This document shows, piece by piece, positions 55,499 to 63,014 of a stretch of 64,000 nt of DNA. Position 1 is the stretch's first letter, and every line of letters begins with the position of its first letter. The position numbers and the translations under genes were made by a program. The stretch spans positions 186,001-250,000 of the forward strand of contig NZ_AOLN01000013.1 of NCBI RefSeq assembly GCF_000337815.1, given 5' to 3'. The notes below the pieces were generated by a model, which ran no database searches, was not told the origin of the DNA, and saw only the letters and a program-made list of their open reading frames with translations. The stretch is from Haloferax mucosum ATCC BAA-1512. GTDB lineage: Archaea; Halobacteriota; Halobacteria; Halobacteriales; Haloferacaceae.

Positions 55499-56194
55499 TT
55501 ACGTATCCGACCGCTCGTAGGAGGCTCGTTCCTGTACTTCCTGTTCGATAGCGTCGCGTTCCCACGTACGCGTCTCGTCGCCTTCGACCTCGGCTTGTAC
55601 TTTCTCTTCGAGAAGCGTCACGGCGACACTGTTTGCACCCTCGGGGATGATGAGGTCGGCGTGTTTCTTCGTCGGCTCGATGAACTGCTCGTGCATCGGC
55701 TTGACCGTCGAGAGATACTGGTCGATGACACCTTGGAGGTCGCGGCCGCGGTCGATGGCGTCGCGCTGGATACGCCGCAGAATACGAACGTCGGCGTCGG
55801 TTTCGACGTACAGGCGTAAATCGAGCATCTCGTTTACGTCCTCGTCGTAGAGCGCGAGAATTCCTTCCAGGATGATGACGTCGGTCGGCTCGACGGTCAC
55901 GCGCTCTGGTTTCCGGTTGTGGACCTCGAAATCGTACTGCGGCATCTCGACGGACCGGCCTTCGAGCAGTTCGGAGAGCTGTTCGCGCAATAGGTCCCAC
56001 TCGAACGCCGACGGGTGGTCGTAGTTCATCTGCTCCCGCTCGGCCATTTCGAGGTGACTCTGGTCTTTGTAGTAGTTGTCAATCGGAATCCGCGTCACGG
56101 ATTCGCCGACGTTCTCCGTGATGAGTCGGGCCACGGTCGTCTTTCCGGCACCACTGCCCCCGGCGATGCCGATGACGAACGACGGAATAGTCAT
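55499..56194 (-). CDS. udk: uridine kinase
   Basis: The 231-residue P-loop kinase begins with VIGIAGGSGAGKTTVARLI (Walker A GGSGAGKT, about 11-18) and contains DNYYKDQSHLEM and NYDHPSAFEWDLL (uridine binding), LEGILALYDEDV and RRIQRDAIDRGRDLQGVIDQY (part: RRIQRDAIDRGRD). It phosphorylates uridine/cytidine in pyrimidine salvage. It is monocistronic; the next gene upstream is the divergent binding protein. Confidence 0.94.
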   Translation of the reverse strand: MTIPSFVIGIAGGSGAGKTTVARLITENVGESVTRIPIDNYYKDQSHLEMAEREQMNYDHPSAFEWDLLREQLSELLEGRSVEMPQYDFEVHNRKPERVTVEPTDVIILEGILALYDEDVNEMLDLRLYVETDADVRILRRIQRDAIDRGRDLQGVIDQYLSTVKPMHEQFIEPTKKHADLIIPEGANSVAVTLLEEKVQAEVEGDETRTWERDAIEQEVQERASYERSDT

Positions 56195-56349: not shown

Positions 56350-56357
56350 TTTATAAA
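56350..56357 (+). promoter_or_regulatory. TATA box of the binding-protein gene
   Basis: tttataaa lies about 26 nt before ATG 56381, so transcription would start at or next to that codon. This supports MVRDIVRR as the protein start rather than ATG 56369 four codons earlier. Confidence 0.6.
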
Positions 56358-56380
56358 CTACACCGTCCATGCCATTTGAC

Positions 56381-57697
56381 ATGGTACGTGATATCGTACG
56401 ACGCGACTTCCTCAAGGGAGTGGGAGCCGCGGGCGCGGCAGGCTTGACTGGCTTATCAGGATGCATCGGTGGCGGCGGCGACGGTGGTGGCGGCCCGGAG
56501 GGGCTTGTCGTCATCGGCTACCCGGAAAGCGGGATTCAGTTGTTCCGTGATTACTACAGCGCATCCGACGGGAGCGAGTCGATTCTGGTTCCCGACGGGC
56601 TTCGCTCTGGGTCGATGCCCGGGCAGGTCGGAAACGACATGGAGAACGTCACCGGAACGGCACCGGCGGCTGGCGGTCCGAATCAAGAGACGTTCAACCA
56701 ACTGTTCCAAGACGAGTACGGGGGGGCACCGGGGGTCTTTACGTCACAGACGTACGACTCCGTCGCAATCCAACTCCTCTCGAACGCCGCGGCCGGTGAG
56801 AACTCCGGACCGGCAATCAAAGACCAGATGCGCCGGATGGCGAATCCGGGCGGCATGACGGTCGGACCGGACAACCTCGTAGAGGGTATCGAAGCGGCCG
56901 CAAACGGCGAAGACATCGACTACCAAGGAGCGTCGTCTTCGGTCAACTTCAACGAGTTGGGCGACCCCGCGGAGGCGGCCTACGCCATCTGGGAGTTCGA
57001 CGCCGAAAACAACGCGACGACAGAAGTCGATAAACAGAGTTTCGCTGGCGACAACCCCGACGGGTCCGGACCGGCCGCAGACAGCGGGCCGGGGGGGACC
57101 GACCGCGAAATCGACGTGGGGATTCTCCTGCCGGAGACCGGTGATCTCGCGGCCGTCGGGCAACCGATGATTCAGGCCGCACAGATACCGGTCAAGCAGG
57201 TCAACGACGCCAACCCGGCCGGCATCTCGGTCAACGCGCAGATCGAAGACACCCAAACGTCTCCCGACGTCGGTGTCTCGGCCGCGCAATCGCTCGTCTC
57301 CGCCGGCGTCCCGTCGGTCTGTGGGTCGGCATCGTCCGGTGTGAACGTCCCCGTCTCACAACAGGCGTTCATCCCGAACGAAATCGTCGGCTGTTCGCCG
57401 TCCTCGACGGCACTGTCCGTCTCGAACCTCGAAGACAACGACTTCATCTTCCGGACGGCACCGTCCGACTTCCTGCAGGGTCGCGTCATGGCACAGGTCA
57501 TGTCCGAACGCCTCGAAGTCAGCACGGTATCGACGCTGTTCGTCAACAACGACTACGGGCAACAACTCTCCGAGCGCTTCAGTAGCGTCTTCAGTGACCA
57601 ATTCGATGGGGAAGTGTACAATCAGGTCGCGTTCAACATCGGTGAGTCGTCGTACTCCTCGGTCATCGGGACGGCGCTCTCCGGTCCGGAGAACTGA
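56381..57697 (+). CDS. branched-chain amino acid type ABC substrate-binding lipoprotein, circularly permuted
   Basis: The protein of 438 residues has a Tat lipoprotein signal (RRDFLKGVGAAG, lipobox LSGC with Cys28) and a Gly-rich linker. Residues 39-222 (GLVVIGYPESGIQLFRDYYS; YQGASSSVNFNELG) match the C-terminal half of LivJ/LivK-type proteins, and residues 243-438 (IDVGILLPETGDLAAVG; NNDYGQQLSERF) match the N-terminal half. The normal order is therefore swapped, with the ends joined through a Gly/Asp linker (223-242). The protein ends at GTALSGPEN, exactly where the half at residue 39 (GPEGLVV) should continue. The livHMGF genes lie nearby on the other strand. It may still fold, since both halves are whole. 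Confidence 0.88.
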   Translation: MVRDIVRRDFLKGVGAAGAAGLTGLSGCIGGGGDGGGGPEGLVVIGYPESGIQLFRDYYSASDGSESILVPDGLRSGSMPGQVGNDMENVTGTAPAAGGPNQETFNQLFQDEYGGAPGVFTSQTYDSVAIQLLSNAAAGENSGPAIKDQMRRMANPGGMTVGPDNLVEGIEAAANGEDIDYQGASSSVNFNELGDPAEAAYAIWEFDAENNATTEVDKQSFAGDNPDGSGPAADSGPGGTDREIDVGILLPETGDLAAVGQPMIQAAQIPVKQVNDANPAGISVNAQIEDTQTSPDVGVSAAQSLVSAGVPSVCGSASSGVNVPVSQQAFIPNEIVGCSPSSTALSVSNLEDNDFIFRTAPSDFLQGRVMAQVMSERLEVSTVSTLFVNNDYGQQLSERFSSVFSDQFDGEVYNQVAFNIGESSYSSVIGTALSGPEN

Positions 57698-57824: not shown

Positions 57825-58934
57825 ATGAAGCGTCGCGCCCTCCTCTCGACGCTCGGTGGGTCGTATCTCACACTCACCGCCGGTTGTCTCTCACAAAACG
57901 GGACGTCGGGGACGCCGTCGAATCCGCAATCAACGACGACCAAATCGACGTCGCCACCGACGGGTACGGGGTCGGAGACGAAAACGCCCGAACCCACGCG
58001 TGCCAACCTCATCGTCGAAAACGACGACGACGAGGAGCACACGCTATCGATTCGAGTTCGAAACGCCGCCGGCGACGAGGGTACCGCGATTCTCGACCGG
58101 TCTGTCGATGTGAGTGACGGTCCTGGCTTCGGGATGGGCGTCGCGGGTTCTCGCGTCGGCGAGGGGACGTACCGCGTCACTGCCGAACTCGACACCGGCG
58201 CGACGCTCGATTACGAGTGGCGCGTCACAGCGGTAGCACGAGACCTCTCTATCGTCATCACGAGCGACGGAAGCCTCGAACCGCGTCAGCGACTCGCCGA
58301 AGGTGGCGACGGGAACCTCCCGTACGACGTCTCGGGGGCGAAAGACATCTTCGCACCTCCGCGCGCCGAAATCCGAAACGAGAGTGACGAAGACACCATG
58401 CTGACTATCGGCATCGAACACGACGGCGACCGGTTTTTCGAGCACACGTTCAACGCCGAGACGGACCGCGAAATTTCGACCCCGCCGCTCGTGAAATCGC
58501 ACGCGACCTACGACGTGAGCGTCGAGACCGACGACGGTCGAAGCGCGTCCTACGAGTGGACGATTCCAGAGAACTGGGGGTGGCCGTTACTGGCGATTCT
58601 CGTCGCCGAGGACGGGTCGCTCATGGTCGGGTGTTCGTGGCCTCGCAGGCGCTCGATTTCCGTCGAGAACACCGACGAAACCGACCACGAGCTGACGCTG
58701 ATGGTTTCGGGCGACGGAAGCACCGTGGCCGAGACGACACAGACGGTATCGCCCGGCGAGTCGGAGTACGCTTTCGATGTCCCCATCGGCGACGAGTACG
58801 AGTTGACAGTCGAGACAGACGGCGGGTCGGAAACCGTGACGTACGCCGCTTGTTACTGCTGGAACACACGCGTGACGGTGACGCTCGCCGGTGGAACACC
58901 GGCCGTCGAGACGTTCCACTACTGGTGTGAGTGA
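57825..58934 (+). CDS. lipoprotein with three repeated Ig-like domains
   Basis: The 369-residue protein has a lipobox LTAGC (Cys21) after MKRRALLSTL, a Thr/Pro-rich linker (22-58), and three tandem domains at about 60-151, 180-266 and 276-362. Each starts with a segment such as VENDDDEEHTLSIRV, IRNESDEDTMLTIGI or VENTDETDHELTLMV and ends in a DYEW- or SYEW-type strand. The domains look like extracellular Ig-like beta sandwiches. The last repeat has extra cysteines (ACYCW). It lies between the binding protein and the livF end, but on the plus strand. Function unknown. Confidence 0.8.
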   Translation: MKRRALLSTLGGSYLTLTAGCLSQNGTSGTPSNPQSTTTKSTSPPTGTGSETKTPEPTRANLIVENDDDEEHTLSIRVRNAAGDEGTAILDRSVDVSDGPGFGMGVAGSRVGEGTYRVTAELDTGATLDYEWRVTAVARDLSIVITSDGSLEPRQRLAEGGDGNLPYDVSGAKDIFAPPRAEIRNESDEDTMLTIGIEHDGDRFFEHTFNAETDREISTPPLVKSHATYDVSVETDDGRSASYEWTIPENWGWPLLAILVAEDGSLMVGCSWPRRRSISVENTDETDHELTLMVSGDGSTVAETTQTVSPGESEYAFDVPIGDEYELTVETDGGSETVTYAACYCWNTRVTVTLAGGTPAVETFHYWCE

Positions 58935-58967: not shown

Positions 58968-59729
58968 CTATCCGCCGAGGAAGTCCTGTCTGACCTGCTC
59001 GTCTTCGAGCAGTGCGGTGCCGGTGTCCATGTAGCGGTTCTGTCCGTTGGCGAGGACGTAGCCGCGGTCGCATCGCCGGAGCGCTTCCATCGCGTTCTGT
59101 TCGACCATCAGGATGGCCGTGCCGGCCTCGTTGATTTCGTCGATCTTGTCGAACATCTCGTCTACGAGGTCGGGAGCGAGCCCCGCCGATGGCTCGTCAA
59201 GCAAGAGCAAGTCGGGGTCGAGCATGAGGGCGCGACCCATCGCAAGCATCTGCTGTTGCCCGCCGGACATGGTGCCCGCCTTCTGGTGTTTTCGCTCTTC
59301 GAGGATTGGGAACCGGTCGTAGACCGCGCGCATCGACTCGGTCGGGACATCGTCGAGGATGTACGCGCCCATTTCGAGGTTCTCCTCGACCGTCAGCGTC
59401 GGGAACACGTTGTCGTTCTGCGGGACGTACCCGATGCCGACGTGAATAATGTCTTCGGGACGTCGGCCGGTGATATCGTCGTCTTTGAACTGCACCTTGC
59501 CACCCATGTGCGCCGTCAGGCCGAAGACGGACTTCATCGTCGTGGACTTGCCGGCCCCGTTCGGGCCGACGATGGTGACGTACTCACCGTCGAAGACGTC
59601 CATATCGACGTCGGTGAGGATTTGCAGGTCGCCGTAGCCGGCGTCGAGGTTGCGGACGCGCAGGAGCACGTCGCTTCGGTCTTCGACGCCCGCACCGCTC
59701 GTCGCACTGGTGTTGGCATCGACGCTCAT
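58968..59729 (-). CDS. livF: branched-chain amino acid ABC transporter ATPase LivF
   Basis: The 253-residue ATPase has Walker A GPNGAGKSTT, the signature MSGGQQQMLAMGRALML and Walker B LLLLDEPSAG, with the D-loop and H-switch typical of the LivF type (NAMEALRRCDRGYVLANG). It pairs with LivG on the membrane parts LivH and LivM. It is the last gene of the operon; the start overlaps LivG by 4 nt. The N-terminus (about 30 residues, MSVDANTSATSG) is an extra halophilic tail. Confidence 0.95.
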   Translation of the reverse strand: MSVDANTSATSGAGVEDRSDVLLRVRNLDAGYGDLQILTDVDMDVFDGEYVTIVGPNGAGKSTTMKSVFGLTAHMGGKVQFKDDDITGRRPEDIIHVGIGYVPQNDNVFPTLTVEENLEMGAYILDDVPTESMRAVYDRFPILEERKHQKAGTMSGGQQQMLAMGRALMLDPDLLLLDEPSAGLAPDLVDEMFDKIDEINEAGTAILMVEQNAMEALRRCDRGYVLANGQNRYMDTGTALLEDEQVRQDFLGG

Positions 59730-60589
59730 ACGTTCCCTCCGAGGTAGGCTTCGATGACCTCCTCGTTGCTCCGAATGTCGTCCGGCGTCCCCTCGGTCAG
59801 CACTTTCCCTTGGTGGAGGACGATAACGTGTTCACAGTTGTTCATGATGAGGTCCATGTCGTGTTCCACGAGGAGGAAGGTGTAGCCCTGCTCGCGGAGT
59901 TCGTGGACGTGTTTGAGTAGCTTCTTTTCGAGCGTGGGATTAACCCCGGCGAACGGCTCGTCTAAGAGCAACATGTCGGGGTCCGTGAGGAGTGCCCGCG
60001 CCATTTCGAGGAGTTTCCGCTGGCCGCCTGAGAGGTTGCCCGCGTACTCCTCTGCGATGTGGGCGATGTCGAAGAAGTCGAGGACTTCCCAGACGCGTTC
60101 GAGCAGTTCTTCTTCCTGTTCGCGCACGTCGTCGCGGACGCCCGGCATGACCGACCGCCAGAGTTCTTCGCCGCGCTGGTGTTTCGGCGCGAGCATCATG
60201 TTTTCGAGGACGGTCATGTCGCTCAGTTCGCGGGCGATTTGGAACGTCCGAACCATACCGCGGTTGGCGATTTCGTGTGGCTCCTCGCCGGTGATGTCTT
60301 CACCGTTGAACGTGACAGTCCCCGCGTCGGGCTTGAGCACACCCGTGATGAGGTTGAACGTCGTGGATTTGCCGGCTCCGTTGGGACCGATAAGTCCCGT
60401 GAGACTCCCGGCTTCGACTTCGAACGACGCGCCATCGACGGCGGTGATACCGCCGAAGGACTTGTGCAGTCCCTCGACTTGCAACGGGAAATCGACCGTC
60501 GTCTCGACGCCCGACGCGAACGCGCCGAGTGCGTCCTCGTCGGGTTTGGTTGCGACGTCATCGACGGGTGGGTCCGCCGCGTCGCTCAT
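59726..60589 (-). CDS. livG: branched-chain amino acid ABC transporter ATPase LivG
   Basis: The 287-residue ATPase has a Walker A GPNGAGKSTTFNLITG, the LivG-type insertion (RTFQIARELSDMTVLENMMLAPKH), signature LSGGQRKLLEMARAL and Walker B LLLDEPFAG. An N-terminal extension of about 35 residues precedes the domain. Start and stop overlap LivM and LivF by 4 nt each. Confidence 0.95.
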   Translation of the reverse strand: MSDAADPPVDDVATKPDEDALGAFASGVETTVDFPLQVEGLHKSFGGITAVDGASFEVEAGSLTGLIGPNGAGKSTTFNLITGVLKPDAGTVTFNGEDITGEEPHEIANRGMVRTFQIARELSDMTVLENMMLAPKHQRGEELWRSVMPGVRDDVREQEEELLERVWEVLDFFDIAHIAEEYAGNLSGGQRKLLEMARALLTDPDMLLLDEPFAGVNPTLEKKLLKHVHELREQGYTFLLVEHDMDLIMNNCEHVIVLHQGKVLTEGTPDDIRSNEEVIEAYLGGNV

Positions 60590-61911
60590 TCGTCGTCACC
60601 TCCTTCGACCGAACCGCCGTCAGTTGCCATCGTCTTCGGACGCGACAGCGAGATGACGGACGCCGTCTCCTTGCGGTGGCCAAGAAGCCCGTCGGGGCGG
60701 TTGTGCATCAGCCAGATGAGCACGAGACCCATCACCACGAGTTGGAGTTGCCGGATGCTATCGACCGTGTACAGGAGGAGCGGGACGGGGTCGAGTTGCG
60801 AGATGAGCGGGCCGATGGCCTGCCCGAATCCAGCCGGGGAGCCGAGATTGGGGAACACCGCCGAGACGAGGTTCTGGAAGTACCGCGGTCCCTGGTAGAG
60901 CACTGCGGCGAAGACCGCCCCGCCGAGGACGCTCCCGGTATTGGAGCCCGCACCGCCGATGATGAGCGCGATCCAAATGAAGAACGTCACGCGCGGCCGG
61001 AAGAAGTTCGGCGTCACGGCACCCTGCGGTATGAGCCAGAGGATACCGGCGAGACCCATCAGCGCACAGCCGAGCATGAACGACTTAATCTTGAACTTGT
61101 CAGTGTCCTTCCCGAGCGCGTTCGCCACGTCTTCGTCCTCGCGGATGGCCTTCAGCACGCGACCGAAGGGCGATTCACCGGTGCGCTTGAGCAACCAGTA
61201 GAACGCGCTGACGAACCCGAGGAGCAACAGGCCGTAGACGATGCCGTCTACGACGGGTTTCGGATTCGTCGGGACGATGACTTGGAACGCATCGACGAAG
61301 CCGAGGTAGACGCCCCACAGCCCCACAGATTGGAACAGCGCTTGGAGCGGCGGCACGAAGTCGAGGATAAGCCCCGACCCGCCGCCGAATCCGACGGTGT
61401 TTCCGAGCACCGAGAACTGCTGAAGCTCCCCGGAGAGGAAACTAAAGCGGACGATTTCCGACATCGCAATCGTCACGATTGCCAAGTAGTCCGCCCGCAA
61501 CCGAAGCGCGGGGAGCGCGACCACGAGTCCCAAGAGGGCGGCCGCGAGCATGCCGGCGAGGATACCGACCCACAGTGGCAAGCCGAGACCACCGACTTGC
61601 GCCGCGCCGCCGGGGACGAACACCGGTTTCGAGACGAGCGCCATCACGTACACACCGACGGCCATGAAGCCGACGATGCCGATGTTGAACAGCCCGGTGT
61701 AACCCCAATGGAGATTGAGGGCGAGCGACAGCATCGCAAACACGCCGATGTAGAACGTCAGCGTGGCGATGGAGTTCAGTTGTCCGCGAAGGTCGTACCC
61801 GAGTCCAATCCCCGCAAGGATGTACAGGAGGTACGCGGATACGAGGACGAACACGATGAGTCCCGCGTCGCCGCCCGGCATGCGAGCGGCGAGGTCGTCT
61901 CGGACGCTCAT
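60586..61911 (-). CDS. livM: branched-chain amino acid ABC transporter permease LivM
   Basis: The protein of 441 residues has about ten hydrophobic segments and the LivM motif YLAIVTIAMSEIVR and GIGLGYDLRGQLN; the coupling region is GRVLKAIREDEDVANALGKD. ATG 61911 (MSVRDDLAARMPGG) is chosen because it overlaps the livH stop by 4 nt; a longer frame upstream lies inside livH. A cytoplasmic acidic tail follows the last helix. Confidence 0.93.
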   Translation of the reverse strand: MSVRDDLAARMPGGDAGLIVFVLVSAYLLYILAGIGLGYDLRGQLNSIATLTFYIGVFAMLSLALNLHWGYTGLFNIGIVGFMAVGVYVMALVSKPVFVPGGAAQVGGLGLPLWVGILAGMLAAALLGLVVALPALRLRADYLAIVTIAMSEIVRFSFLSGELQQFSVLGNTVGFGGGSGLILDFVPPLQALFQSVGLWGVYLGFVDAFQVIVPTNPKPVVDGIVYGLLLLGFVSAFYWLLKRTGESPFGRVLKAIREDEDVANALGKDTDKFKIKSFMLGCALMGLAGILWLIPQGAVTPNFFRPRVTFFIWIALIIGGAGSNTGSVLGGAVFAAVLYQGPRYFQNLVSAVFPNLGSPAGFGQAIGPLISQLDPVPLLLYTVDSIRQLQLVVMGLVLIWLMHNRPDGLLGHRKETASVISLSRPKTMATDGGSVEGGDDE

Positions 61912-63014
61912 GCTGTTGCCCTCCCGCTGAAGAGACCGGACGGTTTCACGAGCAGGATGACGATCATCACGACGAACGCGGCGGCCCGCGCGAACGCGGA
62001 CGGAATCCACAGGACCGACATTGACGCCGTCAGGCCGATGACGAGACCGCCGGTGATGGCTCCGTAGATGGACCCGATACCGCCGAGGATGACCGCGGCG
62101 AAGATGAGGAGCAACAGGAGCCACCCATCGTTGAAGCCGAGGGTCCCCTTCCAGAGGATGAACATGTATCCCGCGACACCCGTGAGACCCCCGCCGATGA
62201 CCCACGTCGCGCGGACGACGCGCTCGGTCGGGATACCCGTGATGAGCGCGAGGTCCTGATTGTCGGCCATCGCGCGCATCGCCTTCCCGAGTTTCGTCCG
62301 CTGTAAGAGCAGGTGGACGCCGAGCATCAGCCCGGCCGCGACAACGAGAAGCGTGATGTCGTGTGCGTCGATGAAGACGGTGCCATCGACGAGGTACAGC
62401 CCCATCGAGGGCGGTTGTGCGGTCGTTCCGCGGACGTCGGAACCGAAGACGAACTGCATCAGGTAGCGAAGCGCGAAAGCGACACCGATGCTCGTAATAA
62501 GGAGCGTGATGCCGTCTTCGTTCCGAACCGGACGGAAGATGGTCCGGTCAACCGCAAGTGAAAGCACGATTGCGAACCCGCCGGCCACGACGATGCCCGC
62601 GACGACGGCGAGCGGCGTCGAGAGCATCCCGATGTCGAGCGCCCCACCGTAGACGGAGCCACCCGCTCCGACCAACAAGAGCGCCCCCACGTCGGCCCTG
62701 CCGAGACCCGCGATGAGGTACGTCGTCGCCCATCCGGAGAACGCTCCGGCCGTGATGTAGTCGCCGTGCGAGAAGTTTGCGAAGTTCAGAATGCTGTACG
62801 TCATCGACAACCCGATGCCCGCGAGGCCGATTACGAGCCCCCGCATCAGACCATCCCAGACAAGCGTGCCAATGTCGGCAAACTGTGTCTGCCCCGTTGC
62901 AATCCCGAGAAGCAGGTCACCGATCAGTACGGCTGCGATGACCGCCAGTACGAGCACGAACGGACGCTCGATGGCGAACCGCCGCCCCCGGGAGTATGTT
63001 TCTGCAATACCCAT
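61908..63014 (-). CDS. livH: branched-chain amino acid ABC transporter permease LivH
   Basis: The 368-residue permease has about eight hydrophobic helices, the LivH motif GLAGIGLSMTYSILNFANFSHGD and the EAA-like coupling loop KLGKAMRAMADNQDLALITGI. It is the first gene of the livHMGF operon, which is fully overlapped (4 nt at each junction). The promoter should lie in 63015-63176, which is A/T-rich. No binding-protein gene sits in front of it, so the permuted one at 56381 is the nearest candidate partner. Confidence 0.94.
   Translation of the reverse strand: MGIAETYSRGRRFAIERPFVLVLAVIAAVLIGDLLLGIATGQTQFADIGTLVWDGLMRGLVIGLAGIGLSMTYSILNFANFSHGDYITAGAFSGWATTYLIAGLGRADVGALLLVGAGGSVYGGALDIGMLSTPLAVVAGIVVAGGFAIVLSLAVDRTIFRPVRNEDGITLLITSIGVAFALRYLMQFVFGSDVRGTTAQPPSMGLYLVDGTVFIDAHDITLLVVAAGLMLGVHLLLQRTKLGKAMRAMADNQDLALITGIPTERVVRATWVIGGGLTGVAGYMFILWKGTLGFNDGWLLLLLIFAAVILGGIGSIYGAITGGLVIGLTASMSVLWIPSAFARAAAFVVMIVILLVKPSGLFSGRATA

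Follow-up and report, generated by a model that had tools for sequence, protein, structure and literature searches.

The window, a stretch of 64,000 nucleotides from Haloferax mucosum ATCC BAA-1512, holds an intact open reading frame (56381-57697, + strand) that encodes 438 amino acids followed by a stop codon and is flanked by a uridine kinase-like gene and by genes for LivF, LivG, LivM and LivH (Table 1). The spacing of its TATA box is kept in 12 related loci, and the ATG at 56381 is conserved while an upstream ATG at 56369 is not; the sequence suggests that the transcript is leaderless or nearly so. At the start of the protein, the Pfam TAT_signal profile matched residues 7-24 just under its cut-off and TIGR01409 matched residues 7-25, and both an export signal and a lipid anchor are predicted from sequence. 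Residues 1-36 have a pLDDT below 50 in the AlphaFold model. A distinct lipoprotein-like gene (57825-58934, + strand) lies between the substrate-binding protein (SBP) gene and livF; among the neighbourhoods scanned, it had a relative at the equivalent place only at one other locus (L051, 46%), and it therefore appears to be lineage-restricted.

Table 1. Features of the SBP-liv locus, with positions counted from the first letter of the window.
Feature	Position	Strand	Basis or remark
udk (uridine kinase-like), flanks the SBP gene	55499..56194	-	name from sequence resemblance
TATA box (TTTATAAA)	56350..56357	+	~28 nt upstream of the ATG at 56381
Circularly permuted LivJ-type substrate-binding lipoprotein	56381..57697	+	profile, homologue and rotation searches
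Predicted Tat signal peptide, RR at residues 7-8, lipobox LSGC (Cys28)	56381..56464	+	Pfam, TIGR01409
Short Gly-rich tether, leading into the C-terminal lobe, not the N-terminal lobe	56465..56494	+	sequence
SBP C-terminal half, residues 39-222, moved to the front	56495..57046	+	profile and rotation
Linker, residues 223-242, original C-terminus to original N-terminus	57047..57106	+	sequence comparison
SBP N-terminal half, residues 243-438, moved to the end; with Ser319 and Thr343	57107..57694	+	profile and rotation
LivF-type ATPase	58968..59729	-	neighbourhood comparison
LivG-type ATPase	59726..60589	-	neighbourhood comparison
LivM-type permease	60586..61911	-	putative start MSVRDD; mechanical ORF extends to 62205
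LivH-type permease	61908..63014	-	neighbourhood comparison

The original prediction held that the two halves of this protein stand in swapped order, with exact junctions and with both halves complete. In native order, Pfam profile PF13458 (curated cut-off 31.7 bits) matched residues 243-430 with its positions 1-184 of 343, in two stretches and at 92 bits, while the first half alone was matched weakly by positions 233-351 of 353 of the related ANF_receptor profile (E = 0.024). When the chain was rotated by script, residues 241-434 being set ahead of residues 39-225 so that the normal order was restored, PF13458 aligned across both halves in one stretch (3-310 to 1-312, 102.7 bits), and phmmer alignments ran continuously through the LivJ-type structures 4gnr (2-316), 3td9 (4-321) and 1usg (4-322); in native order, the alignment in the same searches ended near residue ~430. 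This continuity through PF13458 and the LivJ and leucine-binding structures is direct proof of a circular permutation, confirming that the gene encodes a Tat lipoprotein of the LivJ type (PF13458) whose C-terminal half comes before its N-terminal half. Since residues 39-222 stand ahead of residues 243-438, the protein was filed as a circular permutant of PF13458 and not as a canonical member. The junctions are exact and neither half lacks a part, the N-terminal half ending a few residues past the point at which the C-terminal half normally starts. The AlphaFold model is confident (pLDDT 82.9, pTM 0.83) and, together with the rotation, supports a circularly permuted type I fold; the new termini lie in the C-terminal lobe, in the loop that leads from a helix (residues 426-433) to the next strand (residues 41-45). 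Foldseek matched only ~190 residues of leucine-binding proteins, because the aligner keeps chain order; such half-length matches are expected of a permutant, and by themselves they are no proof of the full fold. The other two PF13458 proteins of the same genome (L257 and L258) have the normal order, the gene studied here alone being permuted.

In normal-order genes the junction between the halves reads '..SSYTSKLQSALGDEPDLLIVIGYPASGIQ..', and the permuted chain ends in '..SSYTSVINQALSS' and starts, after the tether, with 'PDLLTVIGYPESGIQ..'. It had been proposed that a 9-nt stretch present at both break sites betrays a rearrangement by microhomology. The two 9-mers are indeed there and agree in 8 of 9 bases. 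They are no relic of the event, however, and carry no weight, because the stretch shared by the break points of other permuted genes is only 3-7 nt long. The C-terminal GPE is limited to Haloferax and its close relatives Halogeometricum and Halobellus, and ALSS, ALGQ, AMSS or ALSPQ stands at the end of permuted genes that branch earlier, so that a microhomology scar was rejected.

Full-length homologues with the swapped order were found in 14 of 14 same-genus genomes (89-94% identity). Across the order, 296 of 392 Halobacteriales genomes had a match: 159 had a full-length match (permuted), 129 had two half-length matches (normal order), and the rest comprised one genome with a second cut, one partial match and six weak ones. 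These classes were assigned from E-values wherever gene order was not read directly, and in the ~120 genes in which it was read directly the order agreed with the match-based class. The swapped order is therefore found in about 159 of 392 genomes and in 36 genus codes, including every Haloferax examined as well as Halogeometricum, Halobellus, Haloquadratum, Halorubrum, Halorussus, Haladaptatus, Natrialba and Natronorubrum. Genes of both orders are mostly found at one position, between the udk/small-ORF block and livF-livG-livM-livH with a GNAT gene, and udk is kept as neighbour in genomes of both kinds; since orthologues in normal order share this locus (udk - SBP - livFGMH), the halves were swapped in situ. 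The distance from the lipobox cysteine to the first strand has a median of 19 in permuted and 30 in normal proteins (Mann-Whitney p = 0.025, with kinship ignored). Haloquadratum walsbyi J07HQW2 has two permuted SBP copies (L160 and L164) ~11 kb apart on one scaffold, and one permuted gene (L123, genome G188) has an early frame end that leaves an open frame of 368 aa, possibly a pseudogene or an assembly frameshift. Tandem pairs of permuted SBPs occur at the liv locus (L255, L105 and L106 in G217 and G064; Haladaptatus L199-L206); their identity to the window protein is ~60%, and of the two genes only one has an obvious lipobox.

The permutation is not local: it is old and widespread, and it has more than one origin. 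In relatives outside Halobacteriales the N-terminal half precedes the C-terminal half in all cases, which makes the normal order ancestral. A tree of 61 SBPs, with the halves put into a common order, placed the permuted proteins in four clades (A-D) among normal-order ones, requiring four changes (5-95% bootstrap range 4-4); a larger tree gave four changes too, and three were required in a smaller tree that lacked clade D. Trees of the N-terminal half and of the C-terminal half each recovered the same four clades with four changes, so that a recombinant history of the two halves was rejected. A tree of LivF+G+M+H, from which the SBP columns were left out, required five changes: it nested clade B with normal-order cassettes (support 99), put C and D together with a further cassette of normal order, and made the normal-order cassettes of G020 and G222 sister to most of clade A. 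Forcing all permuted proteins into one clade was 68.7 log units worse and was rejected by the AU test (p = 0.0055), as was a single clade of A+B (p = 0.0113), while A+D (p = 0.061), A+C (p = 0.155) and C+D (p = 0.30) were not rejected, which sets the firm count at two origins. The linker of the window protein, 20 residues rich in Gly, Pro and Asp, carries a motif (FxGxNPxGxGPxADSxPGGxxRE) that is conserved in permuted clade A only, and the linkers of clades B and C/D are unlike it. Overall, the trees, the AU tests and the unlike linkers show that the permutation arose at least twice at one cut, and probably in three or four independent events.

A third chain order was found in three draft assemblies of genus code g53 (G324, with G403 at 98% and G407 at 88%; loci L225, L237 and L238), of which the order-wide search had returned one genome only and a genus-wide search the two others. 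Here the tether is followed by the N-terminal half from strand 2, the C-terminal half, a clade A linker (for example FEGDNPDGAGPSAEETPGSDPGR), and finally strand 1 and helix 1 of the N-terminal half, with the original junction healed and the gene at the same liv locus. This linker is restricted to permuted genes, and the second cut, which falls after the first helix of the N-lobe, therefore permuted once more a gene that was permuted already. In other g53 species the position is taken by a normal-order gene or by one with the first cut, so that three orders occur within one genus code.

These mixed cassettes also speak for the strongest alternative, namely that the permutation happened once and that its scatter reflects reversals to the normal order together with horizontal exchange of the SBP-liv cassette. 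Normal, first-cut and second-cut cassettes at one locus in g53, and a permease that travels with its SBP, indicate that cassettes have been exchanged, and the second cut shows that a permuted gene can be re-arranged. However, the exchange of whole cassettes leaves the gene trees unaltered, and these trees reject a single permuted clade as well as A+B; the trees of the N-terminal half, the C-terminal half and the permease are concordant, the linkers of clades B and C/D differ from that of A, and one gain costs more changes than four gains. A single origin is consequently improbable, and recurrent origin in place is the reading that we prefer.

Such recurrent origin would have proceeded by tandem duplication in place, or by recombination of alleles present side by side, with later trimming, a route that could recur and that may have given the second cut in one genus. 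Tandem permuted copies exist in Haladaptatus and related genomes, but a fused gene of 1.5 copies, the expected intermediate, was not found among the genes examined. Circular permutants have two standard models of origin (PMC3320104), of which one is fission and fusion: the halves were once separate polypeptides and were rejoined in the opposite order. In a type I SBP, engineered halves can be examined individually (PMC10601554). In searches that were not aimed at split genes, no genome was seen with the halves as separate genes; moreover, each half yields the same tree, and the second cut with its healed junction is better fitted by duplication or recombination with trimming, so that we hold fission and fusion to be unlikely, somewhat more so than a single origin.

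Several lines of evidence bear on what the permuted protein does. Within Haloferax, omega is 0.065-0.125 and similar for both halves, which corresponds to purifying selection; the low value argues for a function of some kind, and the earlier suggestion that the permuted gene may be functional is thereby made probable. Across 44 permuted proteins, no variation was seen at the pocket residues Tyr47, Asp72, Ser319 and Thr343. In the phmmer alignments, Ser319, Thr343, Tyr47 and Asp72 correspond to Ser79, Thr102, Tyr202 and Glu226 of LivJ, Ser319 and Thr343 being the counterparts of the residues of LivJ that bind the alpha-carboxylate; the residues of an alpha-amino-acid pocket are thus in place, with a conservative change of Glu to Asp. 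In the LivFGMH tree, the type of permease tracks the type of SBP. An arginine pair was present in the signal region of 79 of 79 permuted and 46 of 46 normal homologues examined, and the haloarchaeal Tat pathway exports folded proteins (PMC12186497), so that export does not have to depend on the order of the chain; only the point at which the tether is attached differs, and the altered order of secretion to which the original prediction had drawn attention is probably immaterial.

We therefore considered whether the permuted protein might have lost transport and become a sensor, a chemoreceptor or a decaying gene. The truncated gene of G188 (L123) would fit such a loss, but strong purifying selection on both halves, the invariant pocket residues, the near-constant adjacency of livFGMH and a permease tree that tracks SBP type all speak against it, and it is very unlikely, slightly below fission and fusion in our estimate. 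The idea that the gene is an assembly error or a chance resemblance of unrelated halves has practically no probability left and was rejected, since the swapped order recurs in all the same-genus genomes and in well over 100 independent assemblies, complete chromosomes included.

The window protein is thus very probably the permuted working SBP of the adjacent LivFGMH importer, of recurrent in-place origin and exported by Tat in the folded state. The chain would fold in the cytoplasm into the usual two-lobed type I clamp, be exported by Tat and be lipid-anchored at Cys28, whereupon an L-amino acid would be bound between the lobes and passed to LivHM, the lipid tether pulling on lobe 2 instead of lobe 1. 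Export of the folded protein by Tat would plausibly lift a vectorial-folding penalty, so that permutants may be tolerated. A further suggestion, which we regard as tentative and on balance doubtful, is that the liv locus is a permutation hot spot (four events at one cut and one at a second) in which permutants are favoured because Tat takes them folded and because a tether on lobe 2 aids docking or opening at the membrane.

Natural circular permutants usually come to notice through a distant structural relationship. The permuted and unpermuted orthologues described here have ~50-60% identity per half, a common locus and a common permease type, so that it is possible to date the event, to give its direction and to compare its repeats. 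The family makes it testable how proteins get rewired without losing function, whether new termini are set by structure or by chance, and whether there is selection on the site of the membrane tether, a possibility raised for TpMglB-2. The haloarchaeal liv locus is in this sense a natural experiment on the limits of chain rewiring with function kept. Domain tools return two partial hits for the permuted genes, and the permutation can be overlooked; in the open-access literature we found no description of a permuted LivJ-type SBP or of a permuted archaeal or haloarchaeal SBP.

Once rotated, the window protein is homologous from end to end to SBPs of the LivJ/LivK type (PF13458 Peripla_BP_6, HAAT; PDB 4n0q, 3ipc, 4gnr and 1usg). 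Like them, it is encoded beside a livFGMH operon and keeps the Ser, Thr and Tyr contacts, with Glu replaced by Asp as in 3ipc; unlike them, it has swapped halves, an extra linker between the original termini and a tether on the other lobe. It is not the first natural permutant of a type I SBP, since TpMglB-2 (Tp0684) of Treponema pallidum and its relatives has been described as a naturally permuted 'Type Ic' SBP, with a crystal structure and glucose binding that show such permutants to fold and work, and its authors proposed that permutation might adapt the protein to tethering (PMC4990184). Both are natural permutants of the type I fold and N-terminally tethered lipoproteins. TpMglB-2 belongs to the MglB sugar-binding family and is cut in the N-lobe, its first three strands having moved to the end, whereas the window protein belongs to an amino-acid family (PF13458) of archaea with its main cut in the C-lobe; the rare haloarchaeal second cut moved only the first strand and helix. 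In further contrast to TpMglB-2, the haloarchaeal permutants arose more than once and share their locus with orthologues in normal order. Engineered permuted or split ribose-binding proteins, also type I SBPs (PMC10601554), show that this fold withstands a relocation of its termini and a separation of its halves, but they are man-made and not evolved. Permutation by duplication is known from DNA methyltransferases and from saposin/swaposin (PMC3320104), which share the formal mechanism but have different folds; unlike these, the haloarchaeal SBP combines several independent events and two cut sites at one locus.
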